Of a DNA stretch of 64,000 nt, positions 3,288 to 14,628 are shown one piece after another. Position numbers and translations under genes: made by a program. The first letter of the stretch is position 1. The number at the start of each line of letters is the position of its first letter. The stretch lies in the NCBI GenBank assembly GCA_012735215.1, contig JAAYHX010000023.1:186001-250000 (forward strand). Direction: 5' to 3'. Source of the stretch: Tissierellia bacterium (lineage in GTDB: Bacteria > Bacillota > Clostridia > Tissierellales > Tepidimicrobiaceae). The notes under the pieces are model-generated. The model worked only from the letters and a program-made list of their open reading frames with translations. It was not told where the DNA came from and ran no database searches.

Positions 3288-3656
3288 ATGATGAGAAGGC
3301 AAGACGATTTTAATGAAAGAAGGAAACATCTGGCTAATCTTAGCGATGAAGAATTAGAGCAGAGATTTTGGCAACTGGCAGAAAAAATAGTTGATCCATT
3401 ATTAGACTTAGCCTATGATAACACTTCGCCATCTATAGAAAGGTCTGTCCTTTTAAGGATGGGATTTTCAAGTATAGAAGCTAAGGCTATTGTTGATGGA
3501 GCTATGGATAGGGGGCTCCTTGGAAAAGGAGCTGGTCATTTAGTATATAAGCTTGCAAAAGAAAAGAATATGGACATAAGAGAGGCTGGAGTAAGGTTGG
3601 CTAATGGTGAAATGTGGGATGAGCTTGTATCTATCTTTAACGGAGGTGAAAGATAA
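3288..3656 (+). CDS. oraS: D-ornithine 4,5-aminomutase, S subunit
   Basis: OraS is the small partner of OraE; together they move the terminal amino group of D-ornithine to C4 using adenosylcobalamin and PLP. The 122-residue protein has the family's helical composition and length. Two consecutive ATG codons (3288 and 3291) follow an AGGAGGG box and either could be used. The last base of its stop codon is the first base of the oraE ATG, so the subunits are translationally coupled. Confidence 0.92.
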   Translation: MMRRQDDFNERRKHLANLSDEELEQRFWQLAEKIVDPLLDLAYDNTSPSIERSVLLRMGFSSIEAKAIVDGAMDRGLLGKGAGHLVYKLAKEKNMDIREAGVRLANGEMWDELVSIFNGGER

Positions 3657-5872
3657 TGGAGTTAAAGCCTAATAAGAAACTTGATATAGAATATATTTTA
3701 AGGGATCTAGACAAGTATAGACCAAGAAGAAGGGGCTGGACTTGGAGAAAGGGTACAGGCCAGAAAAGAAGATACGGGCAATTTGAATACTTTGAAACAG
3801 CTGAACCATTGAAAAACAGCCAGCCTATACCAGCAGCCAAATATTTTGACAACATAGATCCTCAACCTGCCCCAGTAATTACAACAGAAATTGCCTCTGG
3901 AAGGTTTGAGGATGATATAAGACGTATGCGAATGGCAGCATGGCACGGTGCTGATCACATTATGGTTATAAGGACAGCTGGCCAGAGCCATTTTGATGGT
4001 TTGATTGAAGGAACTCCTCAAGGAGTTGGGGGAATCCCTATCACCAGAAAACAAGTTAGGGCTCAAAGGAAGGCTTTGGACTTTATTGAAGATGAGGTAG
4101 GCCGTCCAATAAACTATCATTCCTATGTAAGTGGTGTAGCAGGACCGGAAATTGCTGTTATGTTTGCAGAAGAAGGGGTAAATGGTGCCCATCAAGACCC
4201 ACAATATAATGTGCTTTATAGAAACATAAACATGGTAAGATCCTTTGTAGATGCGGCTTGTGCAAAAAAGGTTATGGTATGGGCAGATATGGCACAGATT
4301 GATGGTGCTCATAATGCCAATGCAACTGCAAGGGAAGGCTGGAAGGTAATGCCAGAACTTATGGTCCAACATGCAATAAATTCAATGTTTTCATTAAAGG
4401 TAGGTATGAAGAAGGAAAATATATGCCTATCTACAGTACCTCCAACAGCACCTCCTGCTCCCTGTTTAAGAATAGATTTACCCTATGCAGTGGCATTGAG
4501 AGAGCTATTTAAAGGCTTTAAGATGAGGGCTCAGATGAACACAAAGTATATTGAGTCATCAACTAGAGAAGCTACTGTAACCCATGTTTTGAACTTATTG
4601 ATTTCTGAATTAACAAGCGCAGATATACAATCAACTATTACACCAGATGAAGGAAGAAATGTGCCATGGCATATTTACAACATAGAAGCTGTAGATACAG
4701 CTAAGCAAGCTTTTGCCGGCATGGACGGTTTAAAAGAGATGGTAGAGCTAAAAAGAGATGAAGGGGCTCTTAAAGAAAAGGTTAGAGAATTAAAGGAAAG
4801 AGCGGTTCTTTTCATGGAGGAGATCCTAGAGGTAGGTGGATACTTTAAGGCTGTTGAAGAAGGTTTCTTTGTGGATTCAGGATTTTACCCAGAAAGAAAT
4901 GGAGACGGCATAGTTAGAAAGATAGACGGAGGGGTAGGAGCTGGAACTGTAGTGCCTAGGGACAAAGACTACATGGCTCCAGTAACCGCTCATTTTGGAT
5001 ATAATAATGTGGCTCAATATGATCCTAATGCTGTTGACAATCCATCTAAGCTAATAGGCGGATGTACCTTTGAAGATCCAGATAAGATAGTTTTCATTGA
5101 TGAACTGGATGAAAATGATAATGTAAATATTAGGCTAGAGGAAACTAGGGAATTAAGAGAAACAAGCCTTATAAAGCCAGAGATGGAATGGGCTGGGGAT
5201 GGAGTAGTGTTCTTTACAATGTTCCTACCTACTGAAGTTAGGGTTGCAGAAGTTGCTGCTCTTGAAATAGCAAAGAAATTAGGGTTAGAGGACATAGAGG
5301 TTATACACAAGGAAATAATACATCAAGCAGAAGGGACTAGACTGGAAGTTAAGGGTAGAGTGCCCTTTGCAGTAGATACTTCAAACCTTGTCATCCCACC
5401 AGAGCCTGATATCATGTCAGATGATGAAATAAGGGCAGAAATAGAAGCTAAACCAATGAAGATAGTAGCTGCAACAGTAGGGGAGGATGAACACTCAGTA
5501 GGACTAAGGGAGATTATTGATATTAAGCACGGAGGAATTGAAAAATACGGTATTGAGTGTCATTATTTAGGTACTTCTGTGCCAGTAGAGAAGCTTGTGG
5601 ATGCAGCTATAGAATTAAATGCAGAAGCAATACTTGCTTCAACCATAATCAGCCACGATGATATTCATTACAAGAACATGAAAAAGTTAAATGACCTCTG
5701 CATTGAAAAGGGAATAAGAGATAGAATAATCCTGCTAGCAGGTGGAACACAGGTATCAAATGATTTGGCTGTAGAAAATGGTATGGATGCAGGATTTGGA
5801 AGAGGAACAAAGGGTGTTCATGTAGCTACATTCCTAGTGAAGAGAAGGAATGAGATGCAAGATGAAGATTAA
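3656..5872 (+). CDS. oraE: D-ornithine 4,5-aminomutase, E subunit (B12/PLP)
   Basis: OraE is the large catalytic subunit, with an N-terminal TIM barrel for PLP and adenosylcobalamin chemistry and a C-terminal Rossmann-like cobalamin-binding domain. The base-off/His-on motif DxHxxG is present as DEHSVG, with the predicted cobalt ligand at His613. Lys624 lies 11 residues later in DIKHGG; this spacing matches the His618/Lys629 pair known from the Clostridium sticklandii enzyme, so Lys624 should hold PLP. At 738 residues it is full length. The downstream MutL-like gene overlaps its 3' end. Confidence 0.95.
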   Translation: MELKPNKKLDIEYILRDLDKYRPRRRGWTWRKGTGQKRRYGQFEYFETAEPLKNSQPIPAAKYFDNIDPQPAPVITTEIASGRFEDDIRRMRMAAWHGADHIMVIRTAGQSHFDGLIEGTPQGVGGIPITRKQVRAQRKALDFIEDEVGRPINYHSYVSGVAGPEIAVMFAEEGVNGAHQDPQYNVLYRNINMVRSFVDAACAKKVMVWADMAQIDGAHNANATAREGWKVMPELMVQHAINSMFSLKVGMKKENICLSTVPPTAPPAPCLRIDLPYAVALRELFKGFKMRAQMNTKYIESSTREATVTHVLNLLISELTSADIQSTITPDEGRNVPWHIYNIEAVDTAKQAFAGMDGLKEMVELKRDEGALKEKVRELKERAVLFMEEILEVGGYFKAVEEGFFVDSGFYPERNGDGIVRKIDGGVGAGTVVPRDKDYMAPVTAHFGYNNVAQYDPNAVDNPSKLIGGCTFEDPDKIVFIDELDENDNVNIRLEETRELRETSLIKPEMEWAGDGVVFFTMFLPTEVRVAEVAALEIAKKLGLEDIEVIHKEIIHQAEGTRLEVKGRVPFAVDTSNLVIPPEPDIMSDDEIRAEIEAKPMKIVAATVGEDEHSVGLREIIDIKHGGIEKYGIECHYLGTSVPVEKLVDAAIELNAEAILASTIISHDDIHYKNMKKLNDLCIEKGIRDRIILLAGGTQVSNDLAVENGMDAGFGRGTKGVHVATFLVKRRNEMQDED

Positions 5873-7226
5873 TCTGTTAGTTGCTGAAATTGGCAGTACA
5901 ACTACTGTAATCAATGCCTTTGATGATATTAATAGCCCTTGTCCCAAATTCCTTGGACAGGGGCAAGCTCCTACTTCTGTAGCTGCTGGGGATGTGAACA
6001 TAGGCCTTAGGGAGGCTATTGACGATTTTGTAAAGAATTTGAATATAGACAGAGTAGACTATGATGAGTTAATTGCAACCAGTAGTGCGGCTGGTGGCTT
6101 GCGTATGACAGTTCATGGCCTAGTGTATGATATGACTGTAAAGGCAGCCAAGGAGGCTGCATTAGGTGCTGGAGCCAATATACAAAATATAACAGCAGGT
6201 AGGTTAAGGAAGTCTGATTTAAGAAAGATCAAGGAAATAAAACCTAATATCATACTTATAGCTGGTGGAGTAGATTATGGTGAAAGGGATACGGCACTGC
6301 ATAATGCAGAACTGATTGCAGAAATGGATATAGAAATACCAATAATATATGCAGGGAATATTGAAAATCACGAAGAAGTAAAGGACTTGTTTTCTGATAA
6401 GAGATCAGAGTTATATATAGTAGAGAATGTATATCCTAAAATAGATCAATTGAACATTGAACCCACTAGAAGGGTAATCCAACAGGTGTTTGAAAAACAC
6501 ATAATTCATGCAGCAGGTATGCAGAAGGTCCGTGAAATGGTAAATGGACCTATTATGCCTACTCCAGGAGCAGTAATGGAGGCAGCCAGACTTTTATATG
6601 AAGAAATTGGGGATTTAATGGTAATAGATGTAGGTGGTGCTACAACAGATGTTCATTCTGTAACTGAGGGCAGTGAAGAAGTGAGTAGAATTCTAATCAA
6701 TCCAGAACCTCTGGCCAAGAGAACCGTTGAAGGGGATTTAGGAGTATATGTGAGCATGCCAAATGTGGTGAATCTTGTAGGTAAGGAGCAGCTTGCAGAA
6801 AAGTTGAATGTAAGCTTGGAAGAACTAGATATGATAATTGAGAAACACAGTCCTATACCTACAACAGAAACTGACATTCGCTTCACTGAAGTTTTGGCTC
6901 AACATGCGATTATCAATGCAGTAAACAGGCATGCAGGTGTTTTAAGGCATTTGTACGGACCTGGAGGCAAGAAGACAGTAGCTGAGGGTAAGGACTTAAC
7001 AGGAATTAAGTATATAATTGGCACTGGAGGAGCCCTAACTAGGCTTCCTAGCAGGATAAGTTTAATAAAAGAAATCCCAATAAGCAATAAAGGAAATAAA
7101 CTATTGCCAACAAAGGAAGCTAGAGTATTGGTAGATAATAATTATATAATGGCTTCACTTGGAGTCATGGCAAGGAAATATCCAGAGGCAGCCTTAAGGT
7201 TATTAAAGAAAAGCCTCAATATATAA
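5850..7226 (+). CDS. MutL/GlmL-family ATPase-like protein of the aminomutase cluster
   Basis: The protein belongs to the MutL (GlmL) family found beside glutamate mutase and ornithine aminomutase genes. It has an actin/ASKHA-type fold, with an N-terminal phosphate loop (AEIGSTTTV) and a second one (VIDVGGATTDVHS). By analogy it may reactivate or chaperone the B12 enzyme, but that role is inferred. The ATG at 5850 has an AGAAGG box; an internal ATG at 5862 gives the family's usual MKINLL start, so the true start is uncertain by four codons. It overlaps oraE by 11-23 nt. Confidence 0.85.
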   Translation: MRCKMKINLLVAEIGSTTTVINAFDDINSPCPKFLGQGQAPTSVAAGDVNIGLREAIDDFVKNLNIDRVDYDELIATSSAAGGLRMTVHGLVYDMTVKAAKEAALGAGANIQNITAGRLRKSDLRKIKEIKPNIILIAGGVDYGERDTALHNAELIAEMDIEIPIIYAGNIENHEEVKDLFSDKRSELYIVENVYPKIDQLNIEPTRRVIQQVFEKHIIHAAGMQKVREMVNGPIMPTPGAVMEAARLLYEEIGDLMVIDVGGATTDVHSVTEGSEEVSRILINPEPLAKRTVEGDLGVYVSMPNVVNLVGKEQLAEKLNVSLEELDMIIEKHSPIPTTETDIRFTEVLAQHAIINAVNRHAGVLRHLYGPGGKKTVAEGKDLTGIKYIIGTGGALTRLPSRISLIKEIPISNKGNKLLPTKEARVLVDNNYIMASLGVMARKYPEAALRLLKKSLNI

Positions 7227-7231
7227 GGATA

Positions 7232-7271
7232 GTTAATAGATCTGCCCACAGTATACTATTGATCTGTTAAC
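7232..7271 (+). other. Intra-operon hairpin before orr
   Basis: An 11-bp stem with one G-U pair (7232-7242 with 7261-7271) lies between the MutL-like gene and orr. No U-tract follows. It could be an RNA-processing or stabilising element that sets the relative level of the racemase. Confidence 0.45.
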
Positions 7272-7290
7272 AATAAGGAAGGGGATGTAA

Positions 7291-8358
7291 ATGTACTATC
7301 CTAGAGTAGAAATAGATCTAAATAAGTTAAGGCACAATGTAAGGGTACTTGTTAATATGTGTAAGATGCATGGAATAGATGTAGCAGGTGTAACCAAGGT
7401 GTTTTGTGGAGATCCTCATATTACAAAAGCCTATGTGGAAGGTGGAGTAAAATACCTGGCAGATTCTAGAATTGAGAATTTGATCAAGCTAAAGGATATA
7501 GATTTACCTAAGATATTGATCAGAATACCCATGATCAGTGAAGTAGACAGGGTAGTTGAATATGCAGACATATCTTTAAACTCGGAAATAGAAACTATCA
7601 AAGCCATATCTAATGAAGCCAAGAAAAAAGGAAAAATCCATAATATAATACTGATGGTTGACCTGGGAGATTTAAGGGAAGGATATTTTAATGAAGAAGA
7701 ACTCTATGATGTAGTAGAGGACGTATTGGATATGGATGGCATAAAACTTATAGGCTTAGGTACAAATTTAACCTGCTATGGTGGAGTAATACCTGATGAG
7801 GACAATTTAGGAAGATTGGTTAAAATTAAAAAAAATATTAAAGAAAAATTCAGAGTAGATTTAGAAATCATATCAGGTGGAAATTCCAGTAGTTTACATT
7901 TGTTGATGAAAGAAAAAACAGTAGACGGCATAAACATGTTGAGGCTTGGAGAGGTCTTGGTTTTAGGTAGAGAAACAGCCTATGGTGATAAGGTAAAGGA
8001 CACTCATGATGATTGCTTTCAACTAGTAGCAGAGATAGTGGAGATAAAAGAGAAGCCTTCAGTACCAATTGGCCAAATAGGGATGGATGCCTTTGGGAAT
8101 GTGCCAACTTTTTCAGATAAGGGAATTAGAAAGAGAATTATCTGTGCTATAGGTAAGCAAGATGTGGACATAGATAGCATTATTCCAGTAGATGAAGATA
8201 TAGATATTTTGGGAGCAAGCAGTGATCATTTAATACTAGATGGAACTGATTGCAAGATTGACTATAGGGTTGGGGATAAGATTAGATTTAACCTGACCTA
8301 TTCAGGTATTTTAAGAGTCATGACTTCTGAATATGTGAAGAAGGATATAAAAAATTAG
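7291..8358 (+). CDS. orr: Ornithine racemase (PLP)
   Basis: Orr converts L-ornithine to the D-ornithine used by OraSE. The 355-residue protein is of the alanine racemase N-terminal (fold type III) family, with the PLP lysine at Lys36 in GVTKVFCG and the phosphate-binding SGGNSSS segment. The start follows AAGGAAGGGG. Its position at the end of the ord-ort-ora cluster, with no amino-acid racemase partner nearby, supports ornithine rather than alanine as substrate. Its stop codon lies inside a terminator stem. Confidence 0.92.
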   Translation: MYYPRVEIDLNKLRHNVRVLVNMCKMHGIDVAGVTKVFCGDPHITKAYVEGGVKYLADSRIENLIKLKDIDLPKILIRIPMISEVDRVVEYADISLNSEIETIKAISNEAKKKGKIHNIILMVDLGDLREGYFNEEELYDVVEDVLDMDGIKLIGLGTNLTCYGGVIPDEDNLGRLVKIKKNIKEKFRVDLEIISGGNSSSLHLLMKEKTVDGINMLRLGEVLVLGRETAYGDKVKDTHDDCFQLVAEIVEIKEKPSVPIGQIGMDAFGNVPTFSDKGIRKRIICAIGKQDVDIDSIIPVDEDIDILGASSDHLILDGTDCKIDYRVGDKIRFNLTYSGILRVMTSEYVKKDIKN

Positions 8359-8387
8359 GAGGCTATGGTCTCCTAATTCTTGTTTTG
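8353..8387 (+). terminator. Terminator of the ornithine operon
   Basis: A perfect 9-bp stem (8353-8361 with 8370-8378) with an 8-nt loop is followed by cttgtttt. The stem includes the orr stop codon. Confidence 0.8.
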
Positions 8388-8475: not shown

Positions 8476-8870
8476 TCTATGGCTAATAGCATATTAGCAA
8501 AGTTCGAGCCTCAGATCTCCAAGATTTGTGAAGTATCACGGCTTGCAAAACCGATTTGCGTAATCGCTTATGCTTGAGACGTAAATCTTATGGTTTTGCT
8601 TCGCCGGATACTTCAATCAAATCTTTAAGAATTCGGCTCTCATCTTTGCTAGCATGCCTTTTACCGCAGCTAGGCTAGTGGTTTAAACTATAAAGCAAAG
8701 CCGACATTGGTGAAATTAAGTGATAGCTCTCACGCAGGAAAATCGAAAAGATTTGTAATTTAATGGGCAGAGGTTTTATAAATAAGTTTTCCCAGTGGTG
8801 TTGCTTTCCAAATTTCGTAAATGAAGGGCTGGCTTTATAGATTATAATGATATATTAGTTTAGCCATAGA
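8476..8870. ncRNA. Unassigned structured intergenic element (candidate large RNA or MITE)
   Basis: This fills most of the 636-nt gap between orr and rarA. A perfect 11-bp outer repeat (8476-8486 with 8860-8870) encloses two sub-domains: a 170-nt imperfect hairpin at 8489-8657 and a second region closed by a perfect 9-bp stem (8688-8696 with 8832-8840). The second region contains small hairpins (gtga/tcac near 8720; aaatc/gattt near 8750). By eye it is richer in G+C than its flanks and has no convincing open reading frame. The strand is unknown. The 90 nt before it hold the operon terminator and AT-rich sequence; the 120 nt after it are AT-rich and probably carry the rarA promoter. Confidence 0.6.
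8489..8657. repeat. Long imperfect inverted repeat
   Basis: The left arm (8489-8552) and right arm (8592-8657) are about 65-nt inverted copies of one another. Shared blocks include agcaaag, gagcc, aagattt, tgaagtatc and gcaaaacc. They are interrupted by a near-symmetric internal loop of 9-10 nt. The apex is closed by gatttgcgt/acgtaaatc (8553-8561 with 8579-8587). Many differences between the arms look like an aged palindrome or a selected RNA helix. Confidence 0.75.
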
Positions 8871-8994
8871 TATAGCCCCATTTTCCTTAATCTTTCAAGA
8901 TTTAATAAGTATCTAATATTTTGTATAATATATTTGACTGAACCTTTCAACTATAATATCATAAAATATAATTACATTAAAAGCAGGTGATATA

Positions 8995-10320
8995 TTGGAT
9001 TTATTCACTATGAACATGGAAAACCAGCTGAGAAAAAATGCTCCCCTCGCAGATAGAATGAGGCCAGAAACCTTAGATGAGTTTCTAGGTCAATCCCATA
9101 TTTTGGGCAAGGGAAAGTTTTTAAATAGGCTTATAAGAGCAGATAGAATATGTTCCATGATTTTTTATGGTCCACCTGGAGTTGGTAAGACCACCTTGGC
9201 TAGGATAATTGCAAATTCAACTAAAATGAATTTTGAAAAATTATCTGCTGTAATGGCAGGGGTAAAAGAGATTAGGGATGTAGCTAATAAGGCTGAAGAG
9301 AGTTTAAAACTATATAATAAAAGAACCATCTTATTTATTGATGAGATTCATAGATTTAATAAAGCCCAGCAAGATGCATTGCTTCCTTATGTGGAAAGAG
9401 GAATTATTATTCTTATAGGTGCTACTACTGAAAATCCTTATTTTGAAGTAAATAAAGCACTCTTGTCGAGAATGATGGTCTTACCTTTAAAAAGCCTAAC
9501 AGAAGAGGACATTATCCAAATATTAAAGAGGGCATTAAAGGATGAAGAGAAGGGGATAGGAAGATTTAAAGTAAATATTGGAGAACAAGTATTGGATTTT
9601 ATTGCAAAATCCTCCAATGGAGATGCTAGGGCTGCATTAAATTCACTAGAAATAGCTGTATTGTCTACACCTCAAGACCAGAATGGTATAATAAATATTG
9701 ATATGGAAACAATAAAAGAATGCCTACTGACAAAATATGTTAAGTATGATAAAGCTGGGGATGAGCACTATGACACCATTTCTGCTTTTATAAAGAGTAT
9801 GAGAGGTTCAGATCCGGATGCTGCTTTATACTGGTTAGCTAAGATGATTGAATCTGGAGAAGATCCAAAATTTATAGCTAGAAGAATAATAATATGTGCT
9901 TCAGAAGATGTAGGCAATGCTGACCCACTAGCCTTAAATATTGCTATTTCAGCTTTTAATGCTGTAAATGTTATAGGCATGCCTGAAGGGAGAATTCCCT
10001 TAGCTCAAGCAGCCTGTTATATAGCTTGTGCACCTAAGAGTAATGCAGCCTATGTGGGTATTAACAGGGCCTTAGAGGATGTGAGAAATAAGCCAATAGG
10101 TAGAGTGCCAGCTCACTTGAGGGATGCCTCCTACAAGGAGGCCTCTAAATTAGGTCATGGTGTAGGATATAAATATCCTCACGATTATGAAGGAGCCTAT
10201 GTGAAGCAGCAATACTTACCTGATGAACTACTAGGGATAAAATACTATATACCTACCGATAATGGATATGAAAAGAAGATAAAAGAATACTTGAATAAAA
10301 CAATTGACTTGGAAAAGTGA
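8995..10320 (+). CDS. rarA: Replication-associated recombination protein A (AAA+ ATPase)
   Basis: RarA/MgsA is an AAA+ ATPase related to clamp loaders that acts at stalled replication forks. The 441-residue protein shows Walker A GPPGVGKT (residues 59-66), Walker B with LFIDEIHRFN, and the C-terminal MgsA oligomerisation domain with the conserved KSNAAYVGINRAL segment. A TTG start is used, 6 nt after GCAGGTGA. It appears monocistronic, with a terminator-like hairpin about 100 nt downstream. Confidence 0.93.
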   Translation: MDLFTMNMENQLRKNAPLADRMRPETLDEFLGQSHILGKGKFLNRLIRADRICSMIFYGPPGVGKTTLARIIANSTKMNFEKLSAVMAGVKEIRDVANKAEESLKLYNKRTILFIDEIHRFNKAQQDALLPYVERGIIILIGATTENPYFEVNKALLSRMMVLPLKSLTEEDIIQILKRALKDEEKGIGRFKVNIGEQVLDFIAKSSNGDARAALNSLEIAVLSTPQDQNGIINIDMETIKECLLTKYVKYDKAGDEHYDTISAFIKSMRGSDPDAALYWLAKMIESGEDPKFIARRIIICASEDVGNADPLALNIAISAFNAVNVIGMPEGRIPLAQAACYIACAPKSNAAYVGINRALEDVRNKPIGRVPAHLRDASYKEASKLGHGVGYKYPHDYEGAYVKQQYLPDELLGIKYYIPTDNGYEKKIKEYLNKTIDLEK

Positions 10321-11876: not shown

Positions 11877-11960
11877 TAAAATAATTGGAAATATAGTATA
11901 TATCTTCTTGAATAAAATAGCTTTATTTGCTATAATACTTCATAATCAACTTAAATATAA

Positions 11961-12190
11961 AACGATGACAGGAAGTAGTAGACCTGTAATTGATTACAGA
12001 GAGCTGTTGGTTGGTGGGAAACAGTATCAAAGCAGGTTGAACTCGTCCTTAAGTTGCTAAGGTGAAATAAGTAGCTTTAGCCGGTTCATTGCCGTTATCA
12101 ATTTGAGAGGATAGATTTAATAATCTATCAATTAGAGTGGTACCGCGGAAATACACCTTTCGTCTCTAGCTTAGACGAGAGGTTTTTTTA
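11961..12190 (+). promoter_or_regulatory. Leucine T-box riboswitch of leuS
   Basis: The leader has a Stem I region starting near 11961, a specifier-loop codon read as CTC (Leu) at 12042-12044, and the conserved T-box core AGAGTGGTACCGCGG at 12134-12148. The core TGGT should pair with the NCCA end of uncharged tRNA; its variable T fits the A73 discriminator of tRNA-Leu. The competing terminator is at 12156-12189. Uncharged tRNA-Leu should therefore switch leuS on. Confidence 0.95.
12156..12189 (+). terminator. T-box regulated terminator
   Basis: A 10-bp stem with one mismatch or wobble (12156-12165 with 12173-12182) is followed by seven T. Its 5' strand lies downstream of the T-box core and competes with the antiterminator. 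Confidence 0.9.
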
Positions 12191-12216
12191 TTTTAGAATA
12201 GATGAGGAGGAATAAT

Positions 12217-14628
12217 ATGCGCGAATACAATCCAAGAGTGATAGAGAAAAAATGGCAGGAAATATGGGAAGAAAAAAGGGTTTTCGAAGCAAGTAATGAT
12301 ATGGCTAAGGAGAAATTTTATGCCTTAATCGAATTTCCATATCCTTCAGGTCAAGGATTGCATGTAGGGCATCCTAGACCATATACAGCAATGGATATAG
12401 TTGCAAGAAAGAGAAGGTTACAAGGATATAATGTACTATTCCCAATTGGCTGGGATGCTTTTGGTTTACCTACTGAAAATTATGCTATTAAGAATAAAAT
12501 TCATCCTAGAAAAGTTACTGAGCAGAATATTAGCAGATTTAAGGAACAGTTAAAGTCTATAGGTTTTTCTTTTGATTGGTCAAGAGAGGTAGATACTACA
12601 GATCCAAAATACTATAAATGGACTCAATGGATCTTCCTGAAGTTATTTGAAAAGGGATTGGCCTATAAGAAAGAAATGCCTATAAACTTCTGTACATCCT
12701 GTAAAGTAGGTCTTGCTAATGAAGAGGTTGTAGCTGGTAAGTGTGAAAGATGTGGTAGTGATGTTATTAAAAAGGTAAAAAACCAGTGGATGTTAAAGAT
12801 AACAGAATATGCAGATAGATTGATTGAGGATTTGGAGACAGTAGATTATGTGGAAAAGATAAAGGCTCAGCAGATAAATTGGATAGGTCGCTCAACGGGA
12901 GTTGAATTAGACTTTAGAATAAGTGGTAAGGATGATGCCTTGAAGGTATTTACAACCAGGCCAGATACCATATATGGGGCAACGTACATGGTAATAGCTC
13001 CTGAACATCCTTTAATTGATAAATATAATGACATAATTGAGAATATGGATGAAATATCAAAATACAGGGAGTATGTAAGCAAGAAATCTGATATTGAAAG
13101 AACTGAGTTAACAAAGGAAAAGACAGGTGTTGAAATAAATGGGTTAAAAGCAGTTAATCCTGTTACTAACAAGGAAATACCTATATGGATTTCTGATTAT
13201 GTAATGATGAGTTATGGTACAGGAGCTATAATGGCTGTTCCTGCTCATGACAGTAGAGACTGGGAATTTGCTAAAAAGTTTAACTTACCTATTATAGAAG
13301 TAATAAAGGGTGGAAATGTAGAAGAAGAAGCTTATACTGATACAGAACAGGGAATAGTTGTAAACTCAGAGCTTATAAATGGATTGGAAGTAAAAGAAGC
13401 TATAGAAAAGATGAGTGATTGGCTTGAAGAAAAGGGCTTAGGGAAGAGAACAGTTAACTACAAACTAAGAGACTGGGTATTTTCAAGACAAAGATATTGG
13501 GGAGAACCTATACCTTTGGTACACTGTGATAAATGTGGTTGGGTGCCTGTGCCAGAAAATGAGCTACCTGTTATGTTACCAGACGTAGAGAACTATGAAC
13601 CAACTGAAACTGGAGAATCTCCATTGGCAAATATAAAGGAATGGGTAGAAACTACATGTCCAAAATGTGGTGGAAAAGCCGATAGGGAAACAGATACTAT
13701 GCCTCAATGGGCAGGGTCATCCTGGTATTTTTTAAGATATGTGGATCCCCACAATGACAAAGAGCTAGCTAGTAAAGAAGCCCTTGATTACTGGTTGCCT
13801 ATTGATTGGTATAATGGCGGTATGGAACATACTACATTACACTTATTGTATTCTAGATTCTGGCATAAGTTTTTATATGATATTGGTGTAGTTAACACAC
13901 CAGAACCTTATAAAAAGAGAACATCCCATGGAATGATACTAGGGGAAAATAATGAGAAGATGTCTAAGTCAAGAGGAAATGTAGTAAACCCTGATGACAT
14001 AGTAAAAGAATTTGGAGCAGATACATTGAGAACCTATGAAATGTTTATTGGAGACTTTGAAAAGAGTGTACCCTGGTCAGAAAACGGAGTTAAAGGATGT
14101 AGAAGGTTCCTAGAGAGGGTGTGGAGATTACAAGATATTGTGGTATCTGGAGATAGCTATACTAAAGAATTGGAAACAAATATTCATAAAACTATTAAGA
14201 AAGTAAGTGAAGATTATGAAACCCTAAAATTCAATACAGCTATTGCGGCACTTATGTCATTGCTAAATGATTTTAATAGTCACGGTAAAATAACTACTAC
14301 AGATTTAAAGACTTTCTTAATTCTATTAAATCCAGTAGCACCTCACATAACAGAAGAACTATGGCAGGTTTGCGGCTTAGAAGGTATGTTACATGATCAA
14401 AATTGGCCTGTTTATGATGAAGAAAAGATAAAAGATGATCAAATAGAAATGCCAATTCAAATAAACGGTAAAGTAAGAGGAACTGTAGTAGTTCCTGCTG
14501 ATTCAAGCCAGGATATGATCAAAGAAAAGATAGAAGAAAATGAAAATCTAATGAAATATATAGAAGGTAAGAAAATTGTTAAAGAAATATTTGTAAAGGG
14601 TAAGATATATAACATAGTAGTAAAATAG
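12217..14628 (+). CDS. leuS: Leucyl-tRNA synthetase
   Basis: This class Ia synthetase attaches leucine to tRNA-Leu. The 803-residue protein has the HIGH-type motif HVGH at residues 49-52, Zn-type CxxC knuckles (FCTSCKVG and KCERCGSD; later HCDKCGW and TCPKCGG), a CP1 editing domain, and KMSKS at 581-585. I place the start at the ATG at 12217, 6-7 nt after GAGGAGGAA; an in-frame ATG at 12202 would precede that ribosome binding site. Expression is governed by the T-box upstream. Confidence 0.96.

Follow-up and report, generated by a model that had tools for sequence, protein, structure and literature searches.

What occupies the gap between orr and rarA in the genome of this Tissierellia bacterium? 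The window that we analyzed, a stretch of 64,000 nucleotides, codes at 3656-8358 for a row of ornithine degradation genes (the D-ornithine 4,5-aminomutase large subunit, a MutL-like protein, and the racemase orr, as assigned with Pfam), and its rarA gene starts at 8995 with TTG, in place of the ATG or GTG that aligns with it in relatives. Between orr and rarA lies a block at 8476-8870 that an earlier note, made from the letters alone, had taken for a large structured RNA, naming 6S RNA as a candidate and a MITE or other mobile element as the alternative. The features described in that note are real: a perfect 11-bp outer repeat bounds the block as an inverted match of 11/11 bp (TCTATGGCTAA at 8476..8486 on the plus strand and TTAGCCATAGA at 8860..8870 on the minus strand), no open reading frame of at least 50 aa overlaps 8476-8870 in agreement with the proposed lack of a plausible reading frame, and the block is indeed GC-richer than its surroundings (~40-42% in the first two thirds compared to 19-34% in the flanks). 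Likewise, the imperfect hairpin of ~170 nt and the second closed subdomain reappear in the predicted fold, in which an outer stem encloses one hairpin (~8488-8660) and the second arm (~8678-8848), with -143 kcal/mol on the plus strand and -127 on the minus strand (z-scores of -8.1 and -7.4 against dinucleotide shuffles).

Two properties are not visible from the window alone, namely that the block is multicopy and that its second arm repeats the first in inverted orientation. Hairpin 1 (8488..8660, plus strand, ~170 nt) is the better preserved of the two and scores 171 bits with R1, a covariance model of arm 1 built from 19 sequences, besides its support from covariation; a second covariance model, R2, had poorer structure and was left out of the analysis. 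After a spacer of 17 nt (8661..8677; 15-17 nt in the two other complete composites of this genome), hairpin 2 follows at 8678..8848 as a diverged inverted copy that R1 matches on the minus strand with 63.6 bits. The two hairpins are 60% identical in the window copy and 63-67% identical in the other two composites, and direct alignments of arm 1 with arm 2 in these three composites score 95, 120, and 130, each above the best of 200 shuffles (77, 86, and 72 in the same order). The left outer repeat of the window copy occupies the place of the outer motif GTGGCNGTC that is conserved upstream of related copies, and a copy in G014 ends in a terminal inverted repeat of 10/10 bp (GGTGGTAGTC/GACTACCACC).

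The gene neighborhood of relatives indicates how the block came to lie where it does. In 13 of them (G002, G003, G005, G006, G007, G009, G010, G011, G012, G015, G016, G017, and G019), orr and rarA adjoin on one contig with a gap of 0-249 bp between the gene matches, compared to about 610 (580-636) bp in the window. In these relatives, little sequence separates the terminator of orr from the promoter of rarA, and the same 2 features flank the block in the window (8353..8378 to the left and 8934..8962 to the right, both on the plus strand). Because the site is empty in all 13 relatives, this comparison of sequences shows that the element inserted between these two features. A gene for a 165-aa protein is followed by a second such site: G014 carries a copy there, and its congener G004 as well as G019 and G011 do not. 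No target duplication was seen at either the window copy or the G014 copy, with flanks too diverged for exact boundaries.

By hand count, the genes flanking the hairpins are convergent in 16 cases and divergent in 3, and at some intergenic sites several genera carry a hairpin, not always in the same orientation. Both observations would fit DNA that the host retains as a signal, for instance a bidirectional terminator, a domain boundary, or a binding site for nucleoid or repair proteins. However, the convergent bias is equally expected if insertions into promoters are purged, 6 of 20 family genomes and most of the order lack the hairpins, the orr-rarA site is empty in 13/13 relatives examined, and orr retains its own terminator in the window, and we therefore consider a host-kept signal very unlikely. 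The occupancy of one site in several genera suggests favored sites or inversion by recombination between the arms, and it could also mean retained function. At one such intergenic site of two genera, the hairpins lie in opposite orientation (L224 of G244 at 2013-2192 and L228 of G234 at 2040-2215) between flanking genes that are 68-73% identical. At another locus (L226/L227 of G227 and G226), the region around an orthologous hairpin is ~98% identical compared to near 88% at the end of the neighboring gene.

Copies of the block are dispersed in its own genome of 1.89 Mb, where we counted them through sequence searches: BLAST with the block gave 16 matches, and the genome has ~12 hairpins at 9 loci. 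Two further complete composites (C23:5880 and C20:62449) are 78% identical to the block, and the remaining copies consist of a single arm or have internal deletions. All 3 complete composites retain both hairpins together, and their arms are 73-89% identical between loci, which argues that the composite spread as one unit. Since the copies of this genome are only 78-88% alike, its activity must be old, and the window copy itself is old as seen from a tip decayed by one base (see below) and a hairpin 2 that is weaker still.

Across the family, R1 matches 14 of 20 genomes with ~70 nonredundant hairpins in the loci examined, and across the order it matches 32 of 249 genomes, including those of Tissierella pigra, Schnuerera sp. 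xch1, and several Tissierellia MAGs; a class sample gave nothing outside the order. For draft genomes, copy numbers are lower bounds, given that the contigs of L098, L105, L112, L129, L132, and L133 stop at or beside a hairpin. No matches were found among plasmids, phages, and E. coli, and in IMG/VR the stem string of the family had 0 matches and its loop string 1. The loop string AAACTCGCTNCGCTCAAACAGTG also occurs in long, differently built hairpins of 3 other families of the class (reversed control: 0 matches). In G076, where copies are multiple, the loop string occurs 12 times. The hairpins of this genome (L240-L253) are embedded in larger intergenic palindromes, which are mosaics several hundred bp long and in some cases also contain another repeat, of the CTGTCATTCTGAAG..GAAGAATC type.

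Paired hairpins within the family are invariably arranged as plus then minus (10/10, although these pairs are not independent events), while the copies of G106 from another family stand in tandem and in the same orientation with 97% identity, so that inverted doublets are not the rule everywhere. REPINs consist of inverted REP doublets that fold as hairpins (PMC3116915), and the composites described here resemble them in this respect apart from the direct tandems of G106. The element might thus be a giant REP/REPIN mobilized by a chromosomal RAYT (a Y1 transposase) of these genomes, and Y1 RAYT-like proteins of about 250-320 aa are indeed found in 18 of 20 family genomes, with one in the genome of the window (G000:C20:130325). 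Yet R1 detects no full hairpin and only two remnants at 26 RAYT loci, and the RAYT locus that we inspected closely is bordered by a different palindrome (AACTTCCC..GGGAAGTT). Moreover, G005 has hairpins with no Y1 protein found, and G008, G011, G016, G018, and G019 have a Y1 protein but no hairpin. RAYT as a partner is therefore not supported by either linkage or presence, and this explanation seems unlikely to us. In L281 (G012:C36), palindromes AACTTCCCTTT..AAAGGGAAGTT at ~1030-1110 and 2176-2218 flank a RAYT-like gene; they differ from the element and are likely the true REP of that RAYT.

Is the fold maintained as RNA? The homologue search and covariation analysis that the earlier note had called for returned a multicopy family with strong covariation. 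In our alignment of 19 sequences, 95.7% of the cells pair, and two-sided changes affect 32 of 51 pairs and 139 cells, compared to 16 and 41 in shuffles and at most 8 and 14 in slid structures. This covariation alone would pass for RNA. As a yardstick, we used the 6S RNA of the same 20 genomes, which also forms a hairpin of similar length. Among standard pairs, G.U makes up 1.9% in the element and 17.4% in 6S RNA, and the counts of G.U to A.C are 18:16 and 195:3, respectively. Two-sided and one-sided changes stand at 139:18 in the element compared to 46:72 in 6S RNA. In this pair-by-pair count, the 2 differ with Fisher p values of 1e-34 and 2e-18, which are to be read with the caveat that cells are not independent. 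It replaced an earlier count of isolated mismatches in which the element and 6S RNA were not clearly separated and on which conserved bulges and alignment slips weigh. Because G.U on one strand is A.C on the other and the counts are balanced, neither strand is favored as RNA. The pair statistics thus show that the complementarity of the arms evolves as DNA and not as RNA, and it is probably maintained through copying between the arms as well as through selection.

A functional family of structured RNAs, regulatory or housekeeping, with several copies and a fold under selection could draw on the very strong covariation (32/51 pairs and 139 two-sided cells compared to 41 in shuffles), on bulges and a loop conserved across families of the order, and on the few sites occupied in several genera. 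It is nonetheless highly improbable in view of the scarce and balanced G.U pairs, the empty sites wherever these were examined, and an orientation to tandem genes with no clear preference (~17 same and ~12 opposite by hand count). The block also matches no Rfam family: a scan of the window gave a T-box leader at 11956-12170 as the sole match at gathering score, and the element produced weak matches below that threshold only. This T-box (154.6 bits) lies directly upstream of the gene for leucyl-tRNA synthetase at 12202-14628. The suggested identity with 6S RNA can be rejected, as RF00013 has no match at gathering score in the window and the sole 6S RNA of the genome lies elsewhere (G000:C5:163356). 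It shares a long bulged hairpin of similar length with the element, but it is single copy and rich in G.U, which the element is not. The large structured RNA of the earlier note is thus not supported, either by Rfam or by its stems, which have no G.U excess of the kind found in 6S RNA of the same genomes.

Across the families of the order, the stem sequence turns over, while the asymmetric bulge pattern and the loop are conserved. On the minus strand, the hairpins close on a tip of the form GC-GNA-GC or GC-GNNA-GC in 51 of 74 cases with variable N positions. The same motif occurs on the plus strand in 1/74, in off-centre regions of the minus strand in 0/148, and in shuffles with a mean of 0.8. 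These counts show a tip that is strand-specific in these hairpins. In hairpin 1 of the window, it lies at 8566..8573, where the minus-strand sequence GCATAAGC departs from the family tip GC-GNNA-GC through decay of one base. Loops of the GNA or GNNA type that sit on two G-C pairs form DNA mini-hairpins of extraordinary stability (PMC4686876). The GNRA rule of RNA, in turn, is obeyed by only 9 of 31 tetraloops, which also counts against an RNA family. The minus strand is the more stable one in 63/74 hairpins with DNA and RNA parameters alike, and the fact that RNA parameters favor it too counts against a reading as single-stranded DNA.

Taken together, we interpret the block as a non-autonomous, seemingly parasitic palindromic mobile element of a MITE- or REPIN-like kind and small size, with a probability of roughly 0.75. 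Its unit is two imperfect DNA hairpins of ~170 nt each, inverted to each other, with a short spacer between them and a short inverted repeat at the ends, and single hairpins and internally deleted forms occur beside the full unit. Such units spread within Tissierellales genomes by insertion into intergenic DNA, and the hairpin is kept by complementarity of its arms at the level of DNA. The mobile alternative of the earlier note therefore fares better than its RNA, given the dispersed copies, the 13 relatives with an empty orr-rarA site, and the second pair of empty and occupied sites. The near-identical copies with target duplications expected of a MITE were found in part: there are copies, but they are only 78-88% alike in the genome of the window, and no target duplication was identified. 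It also counts against mobility that no transposase was found inside or between paired hairpins, in genomes that are mostly draft and with contigs often ending at hairpins. Where plus and minus hairpins lie 3 kb apart in G012, the cargo is metG and a small repetitive protein and includes no transposase.

A classical MITE, derived from a DDE insertion sequence by internal deletion and mobilized as double-stranded DNA via its terminal inverted repeats, would account for the short outer inverted repeats (GTGGCNGTC-type in relatives and TCTATGGCTAA in the window), the intergenic location, and the internally deleted forms. However, the outer repeats vary between families while the inner bulges and the tip are conserved—the opposite of what a transposase recognizing terminal repeats predicts—and neither a target duplication nor an insertion sequence with such ends was seen, which makes this origin rather unlikely. 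For the non-autonomous palindromic element that we prefer, a tentative proposal, possible at somewhat below even odds, is that the minus strand folds as single-stranded DNA (e.g., on the lagging strand), closes on the GNA/GNNA mini-hairpin, and is recognized in trans by a putative transposase or recombinase. A doubtful but conceivable extension by analogy is that this order-wide family of mobile DNA may transpose as a folded minus strand whose tip and conserved extrahelical bases are read by a putative single-strand-specific enzyme of this type, like integron attC sites or IS200/IS605 ends. Compared to these, its hairpin is several times larger and has no linked enzyme.

Among known repeats, the element shares with REPINs (PMC3116915) its non-autonomous nature, intergenic location, inverted doublets, predicted single-stranded DNA hairpins, and chromosomal spread. 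Yet each unit is a bulged hairpin of ~170 nt and thus far longer than a REP (20-40 bp; PMC3733652), and the element is low in copy number and not linked to a RAYT gene in the tests made. Stem-loop repeat families such as Bcr1 of the Bacillus cereus group, YPAL, ERIC, Efa-1, Clop-1, and Clot-1 are intergenic repeats of roughly 70-170 bp dispersed on chromosomes (PMC2267715). These are listed by single species (PMC2267715), whereas the architecture of the element can be traced through several families of an order with a covariance model and includes a conserved minus-strand DNA tip; for Clop-1 and Clot-1, the comparison is one of descriptions. With MITEs, it has in common that it is short and non-coding with inverted repeats and empty sites, but it is palindromic along its whole length with conserved asymmetric bulges, and no parent insertion sequence or target duplication was found. 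By analogy, the element thus appears to work like REPINs, Bcr1-type repeats, and MITEs while fitting none of them fully, because it exceeds a REP in size, is not linked to RAYT, extends over an order instead of a single species, and has no known parent. Among the papers searched, we found none containing the loop string and no such family described for Clostridia or Tissierella. The element represents a family of large DNA hairpins that had no name before, and we place it as a new variety among non-autonomous palindromic mobile elements.

These results illustrate how a fold with strong covariation may be taken for RNA in error, since the arms of a DNA palindrome covary equally well, and that the balance of G.U and A.C tells DNA from RNA once an actual RNA from the same genomes is used for comparison. 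For the genomes that carry it, the element accounts for intergenic blocks that would otherwise be left without assignment. If the single-strand reading is true, its DNA-type tip would be a handle for a new enzyme acting on single strands in Clostridia-related bacteria.
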